From Candidatus Fermentibacterales bacterium (GTDB lineage: Bacteria > Fermentibacterota > Fermentibacteria > Fermentibacterales > JAFGKQ01): DNA of 21,266 nucleotides. A program made the translations under genes and the position numbers. Shown here one piece after another: positions 8,006-21,007 of the stretch (position 1 is its first letter; every line of letters begins with the position of its first letter). Location of the stretch: positions 1 to 21,266 of the forward strand of contig JAFGKQ010000205.1 of NCBI GenBank assembly GCA_016928495.1. Reading direction: 5' to 3'. Under the pieces are notes generated by a model. That model saw only the letters and a program-made list of their open reading frames with translations. It was not told the DNA's origin and did not search any database.

Positions 8006-8119
8006 GGCTCAGCGGGAGCCGGAATTAGCTACGGGAATACAGGCTGGCGGAGATCATTCGTATTACACATAATGCTGGTCGGGTTTGGTTGTAGCGGGAG
8101 ACTGGACAGGGAGGTCCAC

Positions 8120-8728
8120 GTGAGAGCTTCGTCATTCCTCGCACTGCTTCTGGGCTGTACGGTCTGGGCTGCGACCGTGACGATCGGCAGCCCCGATCTT
8201 CCCAGTGACCGTCCGTTCTGCGCCGATTGAACCTTCTCGCTGCGCTACCAGGTGGTAGTGCTCGAGGAGGAGATCGGCAGCGCCATGTACATCACGTCCC
8301 TGGCCTGGAAGAGGACGCCATTGGGTGATCCCTCTTCCAGCTTCGACGACATGAAGATCTACCTCGGCCTCTGCGACAGCGATGTGCTCGGCACGGATTT
8401 CGAGAGCAACTACGTCCCCGGGACGAAGACGCTGGTCTTCAGCGAGGCCCCGTTCACCATCTCGGCAGGCGCGGACGAGTGGGCGGTGATCGAGCTCGAC
8501 ACCCCCTTCTGGTACAACGGCCAGGACAACCTGATCGTCGAGGTGACCTGGCCGGACGGGGCGGGGACCTTCTACGTCTACAGGTGGGCTACCGGCAGCG
8601 ACCGGACACTGGAAGCTCCCTACGGCTCGAGCACCGGGATGACCGGCCAGGAGGTTCCCCACATGCAGCTCATAGGCGATCTGGGTCTGGACGGCTGCAG
8701 CTTCGGCAGACTGAAGGTCTCGTTCTAG
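8120..8728 (+). CDS. Small exported protein with in-frame TGA, candidate selenoprotein (paralogue 1)
   Basis: Start is GTG at 8120, with GGGAGG at 8109-8114. Residues 1-18 form a signal peptide (LALLLGCTVWA); LLGC could also be read as a lipobox. The frame meets TGA at 8228-8230 (codon 37) and continues open in the same frame to TAG at 8726-8728, giving 202 residues if the TGA is decoded. The sequence before the TGA is PFCAD, so the motif would be CxxU. After it come RYQVVVLEEEIG and ~160 residues that look like a beta-sandwich (TPFWYNGQDNLIVEVTW, LGLDGCSFG). The paralogue at 20384-21007 is about 45% identical by eye over the downstream part and has its own TGA one codon away in a gapless alignment. 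A SECIS-like hairpin lies 19 bases after the TGA. I do not recognise a catalytic family. Decay to a pseudogene is the alternative, but the downstream frame is intact and conserved. Confidence 0.72.
8242..8261 (+). promoter_or_regulatory. SECIS-like hairpin after in-frame TGA (paralogue 1)
   Basis: GCGCTACC (8242-8249) pairs with GGTAGTGC (8254-8261) in eight pairs, one of them G-U, closing the tetraloop AGGT (8250-8253). Nineteen bases separate the TGA from the loop. Bacterial SECIS elements typically have an apical loop 16-37 bases after the UGA and a G among its first two bases. The E. coli fdhF loop begins AGGU. No bulged U equivalent to the fdhF one is evident. The hairpin lies within conserved coding sequence (RYQVVV), so coding constraint may explain part of its conservation. 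Confidence 0.6.
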
Positions 8729-8854: not shown

Positions 8855-10324
8855 ATGACCCGGAGTGTGGCTCTCAGCGCCGTGGCTCTGCTCGCCACGG
8901 CAATGGCGGCTCAGGGGCAGTGCCCGCTGGGGTACGGGCCCGAGGAGGCATGCCCTGCTGAGAGCCCTACCTGTGCCCTGTTCATCGATGCCGATGGTGA
9001 CGGCTTCTGCGATAATCCTGTTCCAGCATCGGAGCCTGAGCCAGAACCCGAGCCGGAGCCGGAGCCCCAACCGGAGCCTGAACCGGAACCGGAACCCGAA
9101 CCGGCTCCCGATTCCACTACAGCAGGTCCCGTCGAGACAGCCCCGGAGCCAGCGGATGAACCCGGACCCGGGACTCCGGGTGGAGAGCCGGCCTCCGGAG
9201 GCGAGGCCGGGCCCGCGGAAGCGGTGATCGAGCCTCTTCCCGCCGATACGATCCAGTTGGGGTCCGAGGAGCCCGATACGACGGCGGCCGAGACACCTGG
9301 TACGGAGACCGGTAGTCTGGGGGGACCCGCTGGGATCTGCTGCCCTCTCGGCTTCACGCCGGAGACAGCCTGCACGACCGGCCTGCAGAAGTGCGCTCTC
9401 TTCAAAGACGAGAATGCAGACGAGAGGTGCGACAACCCTGTGCAGGCGTCCTCACCGCCGGAGGACTGCTCGCACTTCGTTCGCTCCCCTGACGGATGTC
9501 CTCTCTACCTGACACCCGAAGCGGCCTGCCCCGACTCCATGAGGCTCTGCCCCCACTGGTTCGGAAGGACGTCCGGACAGACCTGCATCAACCCCACTCG
9601 CGGAATCCTGAGGGTCAGCGTCGTTTTCTGGTTGACTCTGGCGATGCTGATCGGGGCGACAGTGCTATCGAGGAGAAAATGGGGGAGGCACCGGAGGAAG
9701 ACTGTGAAACGCATCAGAATGGCCTTCATGGTCTTCTCGCTGGTCGTGCTGGGCTTCCTCGTTCAGGGCTGCTTCTGTCCTCTGGGAACGAGCCAGTACC
9801 TCTTCGTTGCGGGAGGAGCCAGCTTCCTGGGCTGGATGGGAATTGTCCTGGCTGTTCTCCCGATAGTCTACACTCTGGCCTTCGGCAGGGTTTTCTGTAG
9901 CTGGGTCTGTCCCATGGGTGCCCTTCAGGAGCTGCTCTACAAGATCCCCGCACCGAAGGTCCCGAAGCTTCCCGCAAGGCTCGACAGGGTTCTGGTCAAT
10001 CTGAAGTACGTAGTGCTCGCGGGAGTCGTGCTGCTTCCCCTGCTGGTGCTTGGTGGACCCAGAGGAACCTGGCCCGCGATCTTCTGTACCGTGGATCCCT
10101 TCCATACGATCTTCTCGCTCTTCCTGGTCGGCAGCCTCTGGGTGGCGGTAGTGCTCATCGTCGTGTCTCTGCTATGGCAGAGGTTCTTCTGCAGGCACTT
10201 CTGCTTCTATGGGGCGGTGCTGACTCTGGTCTGCCGGGCAGCTCACCACACCGGCATCAGGAAGCTCCTGAGGGCAAGGGAAAGGCCGGGCGAGGAGTCC
10301 TGCGAGATAGGGGAAGAGGACTGA
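8855..10324 (+). CDS. Exported Cys-rich / NapH-like membrane iron-sulfur protein lacking the ferredoxin tail
   Basis: 489 residues. ATG 8855 is chosen because a signal peptide (MTRSVALSAVALLATAMAAQ) follows at once, with GGGAGGGG upstream, though 11 bases away. Residues 23-55, 162-196 and ~215-247 are three related Cys-rich units (CPLGxxPExAC...CALF...CDNP); the first holds DADGDG, like a calcium loop. Residues 60-85 are a Glu-Pro repeat, followed by an acidic Pro/Gly-rich linker. Five or so membrane segments (~253-272, 289-306, 322-342, 383-402, 416-440) follow. CSWVCPMGALQEL (348-360) and CRHFC (446-450) match the paired cysteine motifs of NapH/CcoG/NosR-type proteins and should face the cytoplasm. 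The second motif lacks the usual Pro, and the protein ends without the CxxCxxCxxxCP ferredoxin domain normally found there. Likely role: membrane electron transfer; donor and acceptor unknown. Confidence 0.75.
   Translation: MTRSVALSAVALLATAMAAQGQCPLGYGPEEACPAESPTCALFIDADGDGFCDNPVPASEPEPEPEPEPEPQPEPEPEPEPEPAPDSTTAGPVETAPEPADEPGPGTPGGEPASGGEAGPAEAVIEPLPADTIQLGSEEPDTTAAETPGTETGSLGGPAGICCPLGFTPETACTTGLQKCALFKDENADERCDNPVQASSPPEDCSHFVRSPDGCPLYLTPEAACPDSMRLCPHWFGRTSGQTCINPTRGILRVSVVFWLTLAMLIGATVLSRRKWGRHRRKTVKRIRMAFMVFSLVVLGFLVQGCFCPLGTSQYLFVAGGASFLGWMGIVLAVLPIVYTLAFGRVFCSWVCPMGALQELLYKIPAPKVPKLPARLDRVLVNLKYVVLAGVVLLPLLVLGGPRGTWPAIFCTVDPFHTIFSLFLVGSLWVAVVLIVVSLLWQRFFCRHFCFYGAVLTLVCRAAHHTGIRKLLRARERPGEESCEIGEED
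9032..9109 (+). repeat. Glu-Pro codon repeat
   Basis: This run of GAG/GAA-CCN codons encodes about thirteen Glu-Pro dipeptides, with one Gln-Pro and one Ala-Pro. It forms a rigid, extended linker between the first Cys-rich unit and the rest of the NapH-like protein. Synonymous codons vary (GAG/GAA; CCT, CCA, CCC, CCG), so it is not a recent slippage expansion. Confidence 0.85.
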
Positions 10325-10394: not shown

Positions 10395-12230
10395 CTAGGG
10401 GATCCTCACCAGCCTGACCGAGTCGTGCTGGCCTGCCGATTGGCAGGTCGCGAAGTAGACCCCTGGCGGAAGCCGGGTACCGGACTGATCCGAGCCGTCC
10501 CAGATCACCTGGGCCTGACCCTGCCCGGGTGAAGCAGCCTTGACGTGCATGGATCTGACGAGCCGCCCGGCGGCGTCGAAGACCATCAGGTCCGCGCCCT
10601 CTCCGCCGGTGCCGGTCAGCAGGAAGGTCGTGGCCTCCGAGAAGGGAACCGGAGAGGCGGACACGGACAGAGGCACCTGCCCGGGCCCTGGCTCGTCCTC
10701 TTCTATCCCCGTTGCGGGAACGACGCACAAGTCGTCGATGTACCAGCCCTCCCTTGTCCCGGAGTCGTCCGTCCCGAACACCAGGCCGAGTATTCGAGGG
10801 CCGACACAGCTCTCGGGGAGCTGAATGACGATCTTCTGCCACCCCGAGGTCCCGGAGAAGACACCGGCGCCCGGATCGAAGGGCCCGGATGTCGATGACA
10901 CGATCTCGTAGGGGTAGCCACCTGAGGGCGTCACCACGGCCTCGTCGCACTGGTTGAGAAGCCTGATGAGCCCGCCATCCAGGGCGAGATCTGCGTCTGA
11001 GAGAACGCACTGCGCATCTATCCACATCCAGAAGCTGAGCTCGGCGTTCCTGGGGATGTTGAATCCCGGGGAAGCCAGGATGCAGTACAGCTCGTTGTCG
11101 TAGTCGCCACTTCCCGTGTCCCCGCACTTGAAGCTCTGATCGCCGCCGGGGGTGTGGTTGCGCTGAGTGGATACGTGCCAGTTGCTGCCCCATGGTGAGG
11201 CGAGAGGTCCCATGTGCCAGGGGTCGAAGCCCGGCTCCACGTCGCAGGTGATGCCGCAGCCCGTCGGGAGCATGAACTGGAGCTCCTCGTGGAGGCCCCC
11301 GTCGGCGAAGACGTTCAGGACGTAGTCGTGCTCGCCGTCCGGAACCCAGGACTGGGCGAGGACCCCGAAGTCGTCGTCCGGGTACACGATCTCCCCCGGA
11401 GGAATGTCCCCGTAGTCCTCGTAGTTGTCCGTGACCGTCAGCCCGCTCTCGAGGCTCTGGAGAACCGCGAAGACGTTGGTAAGGGTCTCGGTGCCGGTGT
11501 TCCAGAGGAGCAGCGTGAGCTCGATCTCCTCGCCGGCCTCGAAGGCGCCGTCGTCATCCCCGCTGGACTCGCCGCTCATGTCGTCGTCGACCTCTATGCT
11601 GTGGAGCAGGCCTTCAGAGCCCTGGGCCCCGGCAGCCACCTCGAACCAGTCCCAGTATGCGCCCGATTCGTCGCCCATCAGGAGACCAGCGTCGCCCGGA
11701 TGGTACGCAGGGTCGATCGTGACGAGGTACCAGCTGTCCCCGGTCGCAGGGACCTCGATAGTGAAGCCGATGCTCTGCCCCGAGCACTCGACGTACAGCT
11801 CGTACCACTGCCCGGATGGGAAGGGTGCTGACAGGGAGACCAGTGGGTCGTCGAGCTGACCAGCGACGATCCTGCGTATCCTCGCGACGTTGTCATCGGG
11901 GGAAACGTAGGCGCAGATGCCGCTGTCATGGGAATCCAGGTGGAAGACGACCCCGAAGGCGTGCTGCCCCTTCGCTCTCGTGGTGATCAGACAATCGCCG
12001 GTCTCCTGGATCGACTCGGGCGTCAGAGCTGCTGGAGTGGAGCCGGTCGAGCCTCTGGCGCACCCGGCCTCGGCCCACCACACACCGGGAGCACAGCGGT
12101 TGTCCCAGTCGGATATGTCGTTGTCGTCGAAGTCGTCGTAGAACGAGTACAGAGATGCCCCGCCCGTCGGGGCGTCCAGAGACGCAACGGGCGTGAGCAT
12201 CAAGCAGAGCGCCAACAGAGTAGCTGTCAT
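10395..12230 (-). CDS. Secreted multidomain protein with FlgD-like / type IX-style sorting domain
   Basis: 611 residues. Start is ATG 12230 with GGAGGTGG six bases upstream. A signal peptide (LLALCLMLTPVAS) ends near residue 17. Residues ~28-200 resemble a concanavalin/LamG-like sandwich (YDDFDDNDISDW; WYELYVECSGQS). Residues ~208-325 look like an Ig/CARDB-type domain found in secreted FCB-group peptidases (DGAFEAGEEIELTLLLWNTG). Residues ~330-508 form a second sandwich (NAELSFWMWIDAQ; GWYIDDLCVV), as in MAM or immune-inhibitor-A accessory domains. The last ~90 residues (SVSASPVPFSEATTFLLTG; DGSDQSGTRLPPGVYF) are a FlgD-like domain used as a C-terminal sorting signal. No peptidase or glycosidase catalytic motif is visible, so it is probably a surface binding or structural protein. 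Twelve or more cysteines suggest disulfides. Confidence 0.82.
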   Translation of the reverse strand: MTATLLALCLMLTPVASLDAPTGGASLYSFYDDFDDNDISDWDNRCAPGVWWAEAGCARGSTGSTPAALTPESIQETGDCLITTRAKGQHAFGVVFHLDSHDSGICAYVSPDDNVARIRRIVAGQLDDPLVSLSAPFPSGQWYELYVECSGQSIGFTIEVPATGDSWYLVTIDPAYHPGDAGLLMGDESGAYWDWFEVAAGAQGSEGLLHSIEVDDDMSGESSGDDDGAFEAGEEIELTLLLWNTGTETLTNVFAVLQSLESGLTVTDNYEDYGDIPPGEIVYPDDDFGVLAQSWVPDGEHDYVLNVFADGGLHEELQFMLPTGCGITCDVEPGFDPWHMGPLASPWGSNWHVSTQRNHTPGGDQSFKCGDTGSGDYDNELYCILASPGFNIPRNAELSFWMWIDAQCVLSDADLALDGGLIRLLNQCDEAVVTPSGGYPYEIVSSTSGPFDPGAGVFSGTSGWQKIVIQLPESCVGPRILGLVFGTDDSGTREGWYIDDLCVVPATGIEEDEPGPGQVPLSVSASPVPFSEATTFLLTGTGGEGADLMVFDAAGRLVRSMHVKAASPGQGQAQVIWDGSDQSGTRLPPGVYFATCQSAGQHDSVRLVRIP

Positions 12231-16797: not shown

Positions 16798-18033
16798 CTA
16801 GATCGAGAGCGGCCCGGGTGACAGCTCGAGGCCGCCGGAGACCCTGGACCACTCCTCTATCCCGCTCAGGTCGCCCCTCTCCGACTCGAATGTGACCCAT
16901 AGCCTCAGCCTGGTATCGAGGATGTACTCGATCCCGGGCTTGAGTATGACCCTCTGCCGGTCGTCGGGCTCGATTGGAGAGACGGTAGGGCCATCCCTGA
17001 GATCCATGGCGAAGGTGCCGCAGATGCCGCGCCAGATGTTCACCCTGGTGCTCGCCTCGAAGCGTCTCGTAAGGAACCTGTTGTTCGTGAAGTGGACCGA
17101 GAGGGAGGCGCTGGACGGCACGGAAGCGCCGCGCAGGAACTGCGCTCCGAGCCTTGCCAGACCCGATGCGCCAACAAGCTGGAAGTCATCACCGCTGTGG
17201 TCCATGAAGGCCTTGAGATCCATGCTGACCGATGCCGCGGGGAGTATCGCCTTCACCATCCGCACGTGCCCCACCAGCCTGTTGGCCAGCTCGCCGTCGG
17301 AATGGTCCAGTCCGTCGTTCAGGCTGTAGACGGCGCTGGCCATGATCTGGGCAATGGCCGGAAGGGTCCTCGGCCCCGTGAACACGCCGATGTCCAGCCT
17401 GTTGTAGTCGCTCTCGTACTCGTCGAGATCCTCGCTCCTGCTTCCGCGGTGGAAGCCGGCCAGGCCGATACCCAGCCCGATGGGCGAGCGCCACGAGACG
17501 GAGGCCAGGGCGAGCTGCTCCTTCCAGTAGATCGGTTCCTGCGTGTCGTCGAGCTCGTACTCCCTGCTCGCGTAGCGGCCGTAGAGGTCGATGTCGAAGC
17601 TCCAGGGAAGCTGCACGCCCATGCGCAGAGAGGGCGAGGCGGCGGACCTCCTGTAGCCCAGCACTGCGCCCGGAAGCGTGGAGTAGATTCCCGTTCCACC
17701 CGGCTCCATCCTGAACCTGACGCCGGGGCGGACGTAGAAGGGACCGGCAGTGAAACGCAGCGTGGCTTCGAGATCGTTCTCGGCCAGGATGCCTCTGGGG
17801 ACCATCCCTCCCGAGTCGGAGGAGACGTAGGTGTCCCTGAGCCTGAGCAGCCAGGCGCCCTGAGAGGCAGTCAGCCCTGCAGCTATCTCCCTTCGCCCGG
17901 GGGCGAGCCCCAGACTGTCAGTCTCCGCAGTCGCCCTCAGCCATGGCTCGAGGGTTCCGGCAAGGCCGCCGCCGGCGAGGACGAGCGTGGCAAGCGCCGC
18001 CGGGAGCAGTGAGGAGAAGCCCCGGCGGAGCAT
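16798..18033 (-). CDS. Probable outer-membrane beta-barrel protein
   Basis: 411 residues from ATG 18033, chosen over a longer upstream frame because a signal peptide follows directly (LLPAALATLVLAGGGLAG) and the ATG overlaps the preceding ferredoxin stop as TGATG. The mature protein is rich in short amphipathic, alternating strands with aromatic girdles and polar turns (LEATLRFTAGPFYVRPGVRF; WSFDIDLYGRYASREYELD; LRLWVTFESERGD). This suggests a beta-barrel, but it does not end in a canonical terminal Phe, and I recognise no named family. Translational coupling to exported ferredoxins suggests a partner role, for example a porin-like conduit or scaffold on the outer membrane. That role is inference. 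Confidence 0.6.
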   Translation of the reverse strand: MLRRGFSSLLPAALATLVLAGGGLAGTLEPWLRATAETDSLGLAPGRREIAAGLTASQGAWLLRLRDTYVSSDSGGMVPRGILAENDLEATLRFTAGPFYVRPGVRFRMEPGGTGIYSTLPGAVLGYRRSAASPSLRMGVQLPWSFDIDLYGRYASREYELDDTQEPIYWKEQLALASVSWRSPIGLGIGLAGFHRGSRSEDLDEYESDYNRLDIGVFTGPRTLPAIAQIMASAVYSLNDGLDHSDGELANRLVGHVRMVKAILPAASVSMDLKAFMDHSGDDFQLVGASGLARLGAQFLRGASVPSSASLSVHFTNNRFLTRRFEASTRVNIWRGICGTFAMDLRDGPTVSPIEPDDRQRVILKPGIEYILDTRLRLWVTFESERGDLSGIEEWSRVSGGLELSPGPLSI

Positions 18034-18293
18034 CAGTAGACGGCTCCCTGCGGGCATTCCTCCACGCATCGAAGGCAGAACGTGCACCTGGCGGGGTCGA
18101 TGACCGCTTCCCCGTCGATGACCTCTATGGCGTCCCAGGGGCAGACGTCCTCGCACTTGCCGCAGCCGATGCAGAGCTCGGGGTCTACGTAGAGCTGCGT
18201 CGTATCGGAGGGGCCGGTGCAGGAGGATGCCAGGGTCAGGAGCGCCAGCCCGGCTGCGAACAGCAAGGCAGAGCGACTAGCGTATGGCATCAT
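18033..18293 (-). CDS. Exported 2x[4Fe-4S] ferredoxin lipoprotein
   Basis: 86 residues. An N-terminal hydrophobic segment ends in the lipobox LASSC (Cys25), so the protein should be lipid-anchored outside the cytoplasm. Two clusters follow: CIGCGKCEDVCPWDAI and CTFCLRCVEECPQGAVY, each CxxCxxCxxxCP. The start (ATG 18293, or the adjacent ATG 18290) overlaps the previous ferredoxin gene by 17 bases and has no clear RBS, implying translational coupling. Its stop overlaps the barrel start. The role is low-potential electron transfer on the outer face of a membrane. No twin-arginine motif is visible, so clusters would have to be inserted after Sec/lipoprotein export, which is unusual. Confidence 0.85.
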   Translation of the reverse strand: MMPYASRSALLFAAGLALLTLASSCTGPSDTTQLYVDPELCIGCGKCEDVCPWDAIEVIDGEAVIDPARCTFCLRCVEECPQGAVY

Positions 18294-18510
18294 ATCTGCA
18301 GACCACCTGGCAGAAGCCGCAGGCGATGCACTTGTCAGGGTCTATGCGTGACTTGCCGTCCACTATCTCGATGGCGTCCACCGGGCATATGCGATCGCAG
18401 TCACCACACCCCGTGCACCTCGCCTCCTCCACCCTGTACCCGCTTGCCGCGATGGCCACGGCTGCCAGGAGCACGACGAGGAGCGCGGAGAGAGCCAGCT
18501 TCTTCACCAT
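18277..18510 (-). CDS. Exported 2x[4Fe-4S] ferredoxin with N-terminal signal/anchor
   Basis: 77 residues. MVKKLALSALLVVLLAAVAIA is a Sec signal peptide or membrane anchor, directly followed by CTGCGDCDRICPVDAIEIV and CIACGFCQVVCRYDAI. The second motif has Arg in place of the usual Pro after its last Cys. Start is ATG 18510; the RBS GAGG overlaps the end of the upstream ferredoxin gene. It is the middle of three consecutive exported ferredoxins on the minus strand. Whether the N-terminus is cleaved cannot be told. Confidence 0.85.
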   Translation of the reverse strand: MVKKLALSALLVVLLAAVAIAASGYRVEEARCTGCGDCDRICPVDAIEIVDGKSRIDPDKCIACGFCQVVCRYDAIR

Positions 18511-18520
18511 TGGCCGGGCC

Positions 18521-19015
18521 TCAGATGCTTCCGACGAGCAGGAGCCGGCCTTCGGCGTCCACCGCCGTGACTGTGTAGTGCATGCCGCTACCCAGAGAGA
18601 AGATGGCGCTGGTTGGGCAGGTCATGGAGCAGATGCCGCAGGCGATGCAACTGGCGGGGTCTATGAGAGCCTTCCCACCCACCAGCTCGATGGCGTCCAC
18701 AGGGCACTGACCGACGCAGAGGCCACACCCGATACAGGTTCCCGGGATGACCACGAAGCTCCTGGGCAGCATCCAGGACGAGGGCAGCAGGCCCGTGTCG
18801 GGATCGGGCTCGAGCGTGGTAAGCAGCGCCCCCTCGGACAGGTCCTCGCCCGGCTCGCCGGGCAGCACGCGGATCATGATAGAAGAAAAGCCCTCCTGAG
18901 AGGTTTCCCAGGAGAGCACGAAGCCGTCGTCCTGCTGCGTGAGCGCCACTTCCGCGCTCGCTGCCGGTGCCGACAGCACAGCCATGGCCAGCATGAGACA
19001 CAGACATCGGATCAC
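18521..19015 (-). CDS. Exported ferredoxin apparently inserted in an FN3-like domain
   Basis: 164 residues. Start is GTG 19015, with GGGAGG about 11 bases upstream; a signal peptide follows (LMLAMAVLSAPAASA). Residues ~22-90 look like early strands of a fibronectin-III-type fold (DGFVLSWETSQEGFSSIMIR). Residues 94-133 hold two clusters: C94/C97/C100/C104 (CIGCGLCVGQCP) and C123/C126/C129/C133 (CIACGICSMTCP). Residues ~145-164 (HYTVTAVDAEGRLL) resemble the closing FN3 strands, so the ferredoxin seems to sit in a loop of a split FN3 domain. It is probably the first gene of the ferredoxin-barrel-thiol transporter run. The FN3 reading is by eye; the ferredoxin assignment is secure. Confidence 0.82.
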   Translation of the reverse strand: MIRCLCLMLAMAVLSAPAASAEVALTQQDDGFVLSWETSQEGFSSIMIRVLPGEPGEDLSEGALLTTLEPDPDTGLLPSSWMLPRSFVVIPGTCIGCGLCVGQCPVDAIELVGGKALIDPASCIACGICSMTCPTSAIFSLGSGMHYTVTAVDAEGRLLLVGSI

Positions 19016-20191: not shown

Positions 20192-20383
20192 CTTCTCCAG
20201 GTGGCGCCTCCCTCCGTCTGCGGTCAGCAGGTCAACATGCAGAAACGGCGGCGCAGCGGGGAGTGTCCCGGATTTCGGCAGGGAGACTTGCGCCCCTTCC
20301 TCAGGGTTGTGCATCTTCCGCAGAGCCGAGCTGGTTCGGGAAACCGCAGCACTGCTGCACACGGCATTAGGGTGGAGGATGGA

Positions 20384-21007
20384 ATGAAGAGATGCCTTCT
20401 GCTTGCGCTGGGTCTGGCCGCGATCTGCGCTGCCGCCGACATCGAGATCGGCACGAGCATCGCGCCCTGCGGCTACCCCTTCGGCTGTTGAGGCCACCTG
20501 AGTCTGCACTACCAGGTGGTGGTGCTTGAAGAAGAGATAGGGACGGCGATGCAGATCCAGAGCATCCAGTGGCACTGGGTCTGGACCCCCGATGCGGAGG
20601 AGTTCGCCACCTGCGGCGACTTCAACCTCTACATGGGCTACTGCGATTCGGATGAGCTGGGCAGCGGCTTCGAGGACAACTACGTACCGGGAACCAGGAC
20701 CCTGGTGTACAGCAATCCCTCTCTGTACGTCACGGCAGGCGCAGGCGGCTGGACCCCGGTGAACCTCTCGACCCCGTTCTGGTACGATGGCTCCGGCAAC
20801 CTCATCATCGAGGTCGAGTGGGCGAACGACTTCGACGACAACAGCTTCTACTGCGGTCAGTGGAACACCGGGAGCACGAGGTGCCTCAAGGTCGAGGACA
20901 ATGGGCCGGCGCAGCTCGACAGCAACGTGACCCACATGATACTGACCGGTGTGCTGGGCCTGGACACGGGCAGCTTCGGAGAGATCAAGACCTGCGTCTC
21001 GATCTGA
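20384..21007 (+). CDS. Small exported protein with in-frame TGA, candidate selenoprotein (paralogue 2)
   Basis: Start is ATG 20384 with GGAGG at 20374-20378. MKRCLLLALGLAAICAAA is a clear Sec signal peptide. The frame meets TGA at 20489-20491 (codon 36) and continues in frame to TGA at 21005-21007, giving 207 residues if the first TGA is decoded. The context is PCGYPFGC before and GHLSLHYQVVVLEEEIG after, so the residue would follow Cys35 directly (C-U), with Cys29 nearby. The body shares with paralogue 1 (8120-8728) CDSD(E/V)LG, NYVPGT(R/K)TLV, TPFWY(D/N)G...NLI(I/V)EV and LGLD...SFG. A SECIS-like hairpin follows. The second TGA, lacking such a hairpin in the sequence seen, is the ordinary stop. 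The family resembles short beta-sandwich modules of secreted FCB-group proteins; the function is not recognised. Confidence 0.75.
20506..20525 (+). promoter_or_regulatory. SECIS-like hairpin after in-frame TGA (paralogue 2)
   Basis: GCACTACC (20506-20513) pairs with GGTGGTGC (20518-20525), eight pairs with one U-G, closing the loop AGGT (20514-20517). Twenty-two bases separate the TGA from the loop. Compared with paralogue 1, pair 3 is A-U instead of G-U and pair 5 is U-G instead of U-A; the helix and loop are kept. A competing fold, CCACCTG (20494-20500) with CAGGTGG (20513-20519), is possible. Confidence 0.6.

Follow-up and report, generated by a model that had tools for sequence, protein, structure and literature searches.

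Most characterised bacterial selenoproteins of the bSECIS type have a thioredoxin-like fold. In the published bSECIS model, the hairpin has an apical loop of 3–9 nt with G in the first two positions, a stem of 4–16 bp, a distance of 16–37 nt from the UGA and an MFE of −7.5 or lower (PMC13188914, Fig. 2). The DNA analysed here, a stretch of 21,266 nucleotides from a Candidatus Fermentibacterales bacterium (hereafter, the window), carries two genes of a family that resembles these selenoproteins in its UGA, its hairpin, which has the loop G and the 16–37 nt distance just named, the tRNA-Sec and SelA, SelB and SelD of its hosts, and its Cys homologues. The family differs from them in its predicted jelly-roll fold and in having no NCBIfam or Pfam match.

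A second group for comparison comprises secreted jelly-roll domains of the FCB type from other phyla. The family is homologous to them at the profile level (E down to 1e-17 for G180/G316 and 2e-23 for G114), and the IG-x-G-T...P..SQ-x-IY-x-x-SEIG frame is common to both. However, the domains from other phyla are parts of long exported proteins (G180, G316 and others), whereas the family members are stand-alone proteins of ~200 aa. Where the latter have CxxU or CU, the former carry a loop of the N-x-YY-x-YS or P[FIL]-x-x-YY-x-YS type, in which the site lacks both Cys and Sec. The N-terminal CBM-like domains of acetylxylan and polyvinyl-alcohol esterases and the PHR domains also have the fold of the family model in common, but they show 5–9% identity and contain no Sec or Cys motif.

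The gene at 20,384–21,007 (+) encodes a putative selenoprotein of 207 aa with Sec36. It starts with ATG, ends with TGA (21,005–21,007) and is preceded by the Shine–Dalgarno sequence GGAGG at 20,374–20,378 (+), with a spacing of 5 nt, in agreement with the ideal ribosome-binding site described by the first-pass annotation. The Sec signal peptide noted there is likewise apparent by eye: the N-terminus of the product, MKRCLLLALGLAAICAAA, is hydrophobic and signal-peptide-like, and the predicted signal peptide (20,384–20,437, +) consists of a hydrophobic stretch (helix 2–16) ending at AAA|D. The TGA at 20,489–20,491 (+) directly follows Cys35 in the motif PFG-C-U (CU type), after which the frame is open to 21,007, as had been reported. 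The paralogue at 8120–8728 (+) has GGAGG at 8110–8114 (+), a GTG start and a TAG stop; it encodes 202 aa with Sec37, and its own in-frame TGA does lie at nearly the same place (8228–8230, +), in the motif PF-C-A-D-U (CxxU type). The protein bodies, estimated before at roughly 45% identity, are 44–46% identical (BLASTP, 3e-53). The one-codon offset between the two TGAs is real, since 8 codons separate the TGA at 20,489 from the conserved Gln of YQVVV and 7 codons separate the one at 8228.

A profile was built from both window proteins and searched with stops read through. It matched 39 of the 40 genomes of the same order, and a wider profile found the family in 40 of the 42 Fermentibacterota genomes examined. 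By comparison, a pattern scan over 84,980 species genomes gave a single match, because the pattern demands exact stretches such as YQVVVLEE. From loci in the 40 genomes of the order, 128 distinct family genes were extracted. Of these, 111 carry a single TGA at the site, 13 are full-length but have none, 3 are fragments that do not include the region and 1 is a piece of a broken gene. The genome of the window itself has five copies, four with Sec and one with Cys, and one to nine paralogues, usually several, occur per genome. One locus (L108, G014:C24:105232-105678), with two TGA and one TAA, is a truly broken gene.

The tabulation of the TGA column that had been proposed beforehand gave Sec (TGA) in 111 genes of the order, Cys in 13 and any other residue in none. 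The site codon was TGA in 107 of 107 genes of the set tested and never TAA or TAG. The terminal stops of the family are TAG (44), TGA (41) and TAA (40), so TGA still means stop as well. The site motif of the Sec genes is mostly P[FW]CxxU or PFxCU: CxxU was found in 84 of the 111, CU in 20 and CxU in 2, 4 have no nearby Cys and 1 is cut. A redox pair of two residues is therefore not universal, as six Sec members have neither CxxU nor CU. In four loci, L061, L062, L069 (PIGIGU) and L122 (PFDTU), there is no Cys in the four residues before Sec, and Sec alone is kept. The C-terminal motif [ST][FW]GxIKxxF, possibly a sorting tail, is present in about half of the family and also in some other ORFs; it was noted, for example, at 20,970–21,004 of the window and in L073, L080, L089 and L176.

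The genome of the window encodes tRNA-Sec(UCA) (74 bits) and a selB scoring over the cut-off. Of selA, only the C-terminal part adjoining selB was found; this match is short (139 profile residues) and below the cut-off because the contig ends inside selA. Two selD genes in tandem (G000:C329:357-1283 and 1732-2646, L181) each have a TGA at the canonical, well-known CAGU Sec site; both are selenoproteins themselves and give this genome its own positive control. Across the order, tRNA-Sec was found in 35 of 40 genomes.

In the 20384 gene, a candidate SECIS hairpin, GCACUACC-AGGU-GGUGGUGC, occupies 20,506–20,525 (+), with the stem starting 14 nt after the UGA. In the 8120 paralogue, the corresponding hairpin, GCGCUACC-AGGU-GGUAGUGC, lies at 8242–8261 (+), with the stem starting 11 nt after the UGA and a 50-nt fold of z = −4.8. 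The 50-nt fold around the UGA at 20,489 is unexceptional alone (z = −1.3); it is the comparison that carries the case. In the Sec members, the hairpin spans the codons L-R-Y-Q-V-V-V-L; the stem begins 11 nt after the UGA in 96 genes and 14 nt after it in 15, which places the loop at 19 or 22 nt. The loop is AGGU in 89 of the 111 Sec genes, and G occupies its second position in all of them. With this loop, these distances and the covariation described below, the hairpin agrees with the bSECIS model of PMC13188914.

The inner 6-bp core is intact in 107 of 111 Sec genes vs. 0 of 13 Cys genes (Fisher p 2e-14). The silent third base of the Tyr/His/Cys codon covaries with the base that opens the second Val/Ile codon (C-G in 75 genes, T-A in 33, with 3 exceptions; Fisher 4e-27): the Tyr codon is TAC where the second Val codon starts with G and TAT where Ile or Met (A) stands there, a silent switch that pairing in the RNA accounts for. 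In two rare members with Met (ATG) for Gln, the closing pair is restored by GTT or GCT replacing GTG or GCG. Changes on both sides of the named structure numbered 51 vs. 17 in shuffles, with none of 500 shuffles reaching 51, and slid structures came out below the named one in paired cells and covariation. A search of the genome of the window with the SECIS model R1 found only three of its four Sec copies, and the scores of all other genes were unconvincing. In the copy that was missed (C304, L125), the hairpin is built differently. Where the Sec members have YQVVVL, the Cys members have YQTLYL, as expected if the run of Val is kept for the RNA. The mRNA hairpin appears to steer the amino acids, with YQVVV where Sec is present and YQTLY where Cys is, which would make it a clean case of an RNA element within coding sequence acting on the encoded protein.

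As the comparison of the family shows, the UGA behaves as a sense codon that alternates only with Cys and is accompanied by a SECIS-type hairpin. On these sequence grounds, the UGA at 20,489–20,491 almost certainly encodes selenocysteine. SelB, bound to the SECIS hairpin that closely follows the UGA on its 3′ side, would deliver Sec-tRNA(UCA) to the ribosome, and the UGAs at 20,489 and 8228 would thereby be translated as selenocysteine. The programmed decoding proposed by the first-pass annotation is thus supported and can be named as selenocysteine insertion.

Could both window copies instead be pseudogenes by nonsense mutation, or their TGAs assembly errors? It is true that TGA does act as a stop in other places of the family and that one member, the one on G014:C24, really is broken. 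But 111 genes have TGA at the same site, TAA and TAG never occur there, Cys is the sole alternative, and the covarying hairpin is limited to the TGA genes. An assembly error is excluded by the same TGA in more than 100 genes from about 40 independent genomes, and the earlier argument that two chance nonsense mutations are improbable gains from the 111 genes of the order sharing the site. Two outcomes had been named in advance as evidence against decoding, an assembly error and a dN/dS near 1 downstream of the TGA, and neither refutes it. The 15 most similar pairs of Sec members gave 0.07–0.26 downstream of the TGA (downstream dS up to about 0.55), which indicates purifying selection after the UGA. 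Taken over all pairs, the median is 0.58 downstream and 0.63 upstream; these two values are little informative, since most of the pairs behind them are diverged paralogues close to saturation. The chance of decay or error is, in our judgement, negligible, and we reject it on the shared site and the covariation. Hardly more credible is that TGA has been reassigned to Trp or Gly throughout the genome, or that a near-cognate tRNA reads it through generically: the TGA does stand in a sense-coding frame, as both would have it, but 41 family genes end in TGA, the substituting residue is only Cys and never Trp or Gly, and the Sec machinery is encoded in the genome along with two selD genes that themselves contain Sec. 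On these three points, reassignment and readthrough are rejected too, and selenocysteine remains our reading of the codon.

The AlphaFold2 model, based on 76 members, predicts an all-beta jelly-roll with a pLDDT of 92. Foldseek and VIA-align matched it to CBM-like esterase domains, to PHR domains and to domains of phage tails, with Z of 9–11 and identities near 10%; for the esterase and PHR domains, the rmsd is 3.2–4.1 Å over 136–159 residues. Such values support a statement about the fold only. No thioredoxin-fold structure was among the fold matches listed. The family is predicted to be exported, and the model favours a jelly-roll over a thioredoxin fold. The NCBIfam (June 2026) and Pfam libraries contained no family for the 76 members beyond single stray weak matches, and a sequence search of the PDB found no family. 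The literature searched included no paper joining Fermentibacterota (Fermentibacteria, Hyd24-12) with selenoproteins, and the family is absent, by listing, from the 119 prokaryotic selenoprotein families in Table 1 of PMC13188914. We apparently deal with a large undescribed family of exported selenoproteins, nearly phylum-wide in Fermentibacterota and set apart from the 119 families by the table listing. Its more than 110 Sec genes in one phylum would add a whole selenoprotein family, exported and with a fold that redox selenoproteins do not typically have, whose genes are cut in two by gene finders and covered by no public family model.

The neighbours of the genes give indications of function. 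Downstream of the 8120 paralogue, a membrane polyferredoxin (Fer4_5; weakly NapH/MauN- and NosR-like) with a Cys-rich N-terminal region is encoded at 8855–10,324 (+). Its exported N-terminus contains repeated Cys-rich CPLGYxPEEACPxxSPxCALFxDxDGDGxCDNP units. This neighbour is conserved: a homologue lies just downstream, on the same strand, of 37 Sec members (where two stand in tandem, it follows the second and is counted for the first as well), and most genomes have one polyferredoxin-linked Sec copy or tandem pair. The 20384 copy has no adjoining polyferredoxin. As for the Cys members, 10 of 13 lie 34–110 nt after a secreted Omp28/Trx-like gene with FTNCGCxPCW, and two more have a related ORF near them on the other strand. 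This neighbour has a type IX sorting tail and weak matches to the Omp28 model and to that of the Omp28-related selenoprotein (NF045500, 'hypothetical protein GOS_C'; 8e-9, below the cut-off). The likeness to NF045500 belongs to the neighbour, which has CGCxPC and no Sec, and not to the family protein.

Since both neighbours are redox proteins, we infer extracytoplasmic thiol/selenol redox chemistry. After its presumed export, the protein would be a jelly-roll beta-sandwich of ~185 residues whose first strands are joined by a loop displaying C-U or C-x-x-U, and our best guess is that the protein acts as an extracytoplasmic thiol/selenol oxidoreductase or electron carrier. The probable partner of many Sec copies, that at 8120 included, would be the NapH/NosR-like polyferredoxin encoded immediately downstream, and that of most Cys copies the secreted Omp28/thioredoxin-like protein encoded immediately upstream. 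Taken by itself, a redox role of the family is likely, while a supply of electrons by the polyferredoxin is a more tentative suggestion. The jelly-roll fold by itself gives no enzyme activity, and Sec might instead, without being redox-active, serve scavenging or sensing by holding a metal, a metalloid or an organic ligand at the surface of the jelly-roll. The likeness of the fold to carbohydrate-binding and PHR/Eph-type binding domains, the four members without a nearby Cys and the CU motifs of the catalogued families MbdU, MerB-like SaoL and HgcA speak for such binding. We consider it unlikely, as CxxU/CxxC in most members, the Sec/Cys exchange and the redox neighbours fit thiol redox chemistry better. 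The combined account of exported selenoproteins with SelB/SECIS decoding, a jelly-roll fold and a putative redox role is, in our opinion, very probable.

The trees nest the Cys members among the Sec members, with about three changes between them. In AU tests, placing all Cys members in one clade gave p 0.38, and the tree holding all Sec rows apart from the Cys rows was not rejected (p 0.09). The latter result would allow the family to have begun with Cys and then turned to Sec, which is the common direction for bacterial selenoproteins (PMC13188914). The nesting of the Cys members and the relatives outside the family, which have neither Cys nor Sec, argue against this order of events, and we regard it as improbable. 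A gain of Sec without a Cys ancestor is suggested instead. It is possible, though somewhat less likely than not, that a binding or surface jelly-roll with no redox residue gained Sec directly and spread through the phylum as one to nine exported paralogues per genome, with an extracytoplasmic selenol redox function fed by the NapH/NosR-like polyferredoxin, and that a side branch went from Sec to Cys and took the secreted thioredoxin-like protein as its partner. With its fold and its predicted export, the family may offer a test case both for Sec that arose directly, with no Cys forerunner, and for the step from Sec to Cys, which is rare.

Outside the phylum, one Sec homologue was found, in genome G160 (PFCGGU; L146, G160:C11:3396-3998, −), which has its own tRNA-Sec. 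It carries a fitting hairpin with a G-rich loop, different from that of the family, and the C-terminal sequence SWGVIKAGF. The long branch of this homologue makes its placement in the tree uncertain.

Three small neighbouring genes of the window (18,033–18,293, about 18,284–18,510 and 18,521–19,015, all on the minus strand) encode products that start like a signal peptide or lipoprotein and continue with 2[4Fe-4S] motifs of the ferredoxin type; they are predicted to be extracytoplasmic ferredoxins, which is unusual. In addition, the gene at 10,395–12,230 (−) seems, by eye, to encode an exported protein with a type IX/FlgD-like C-terminal sorting domain.
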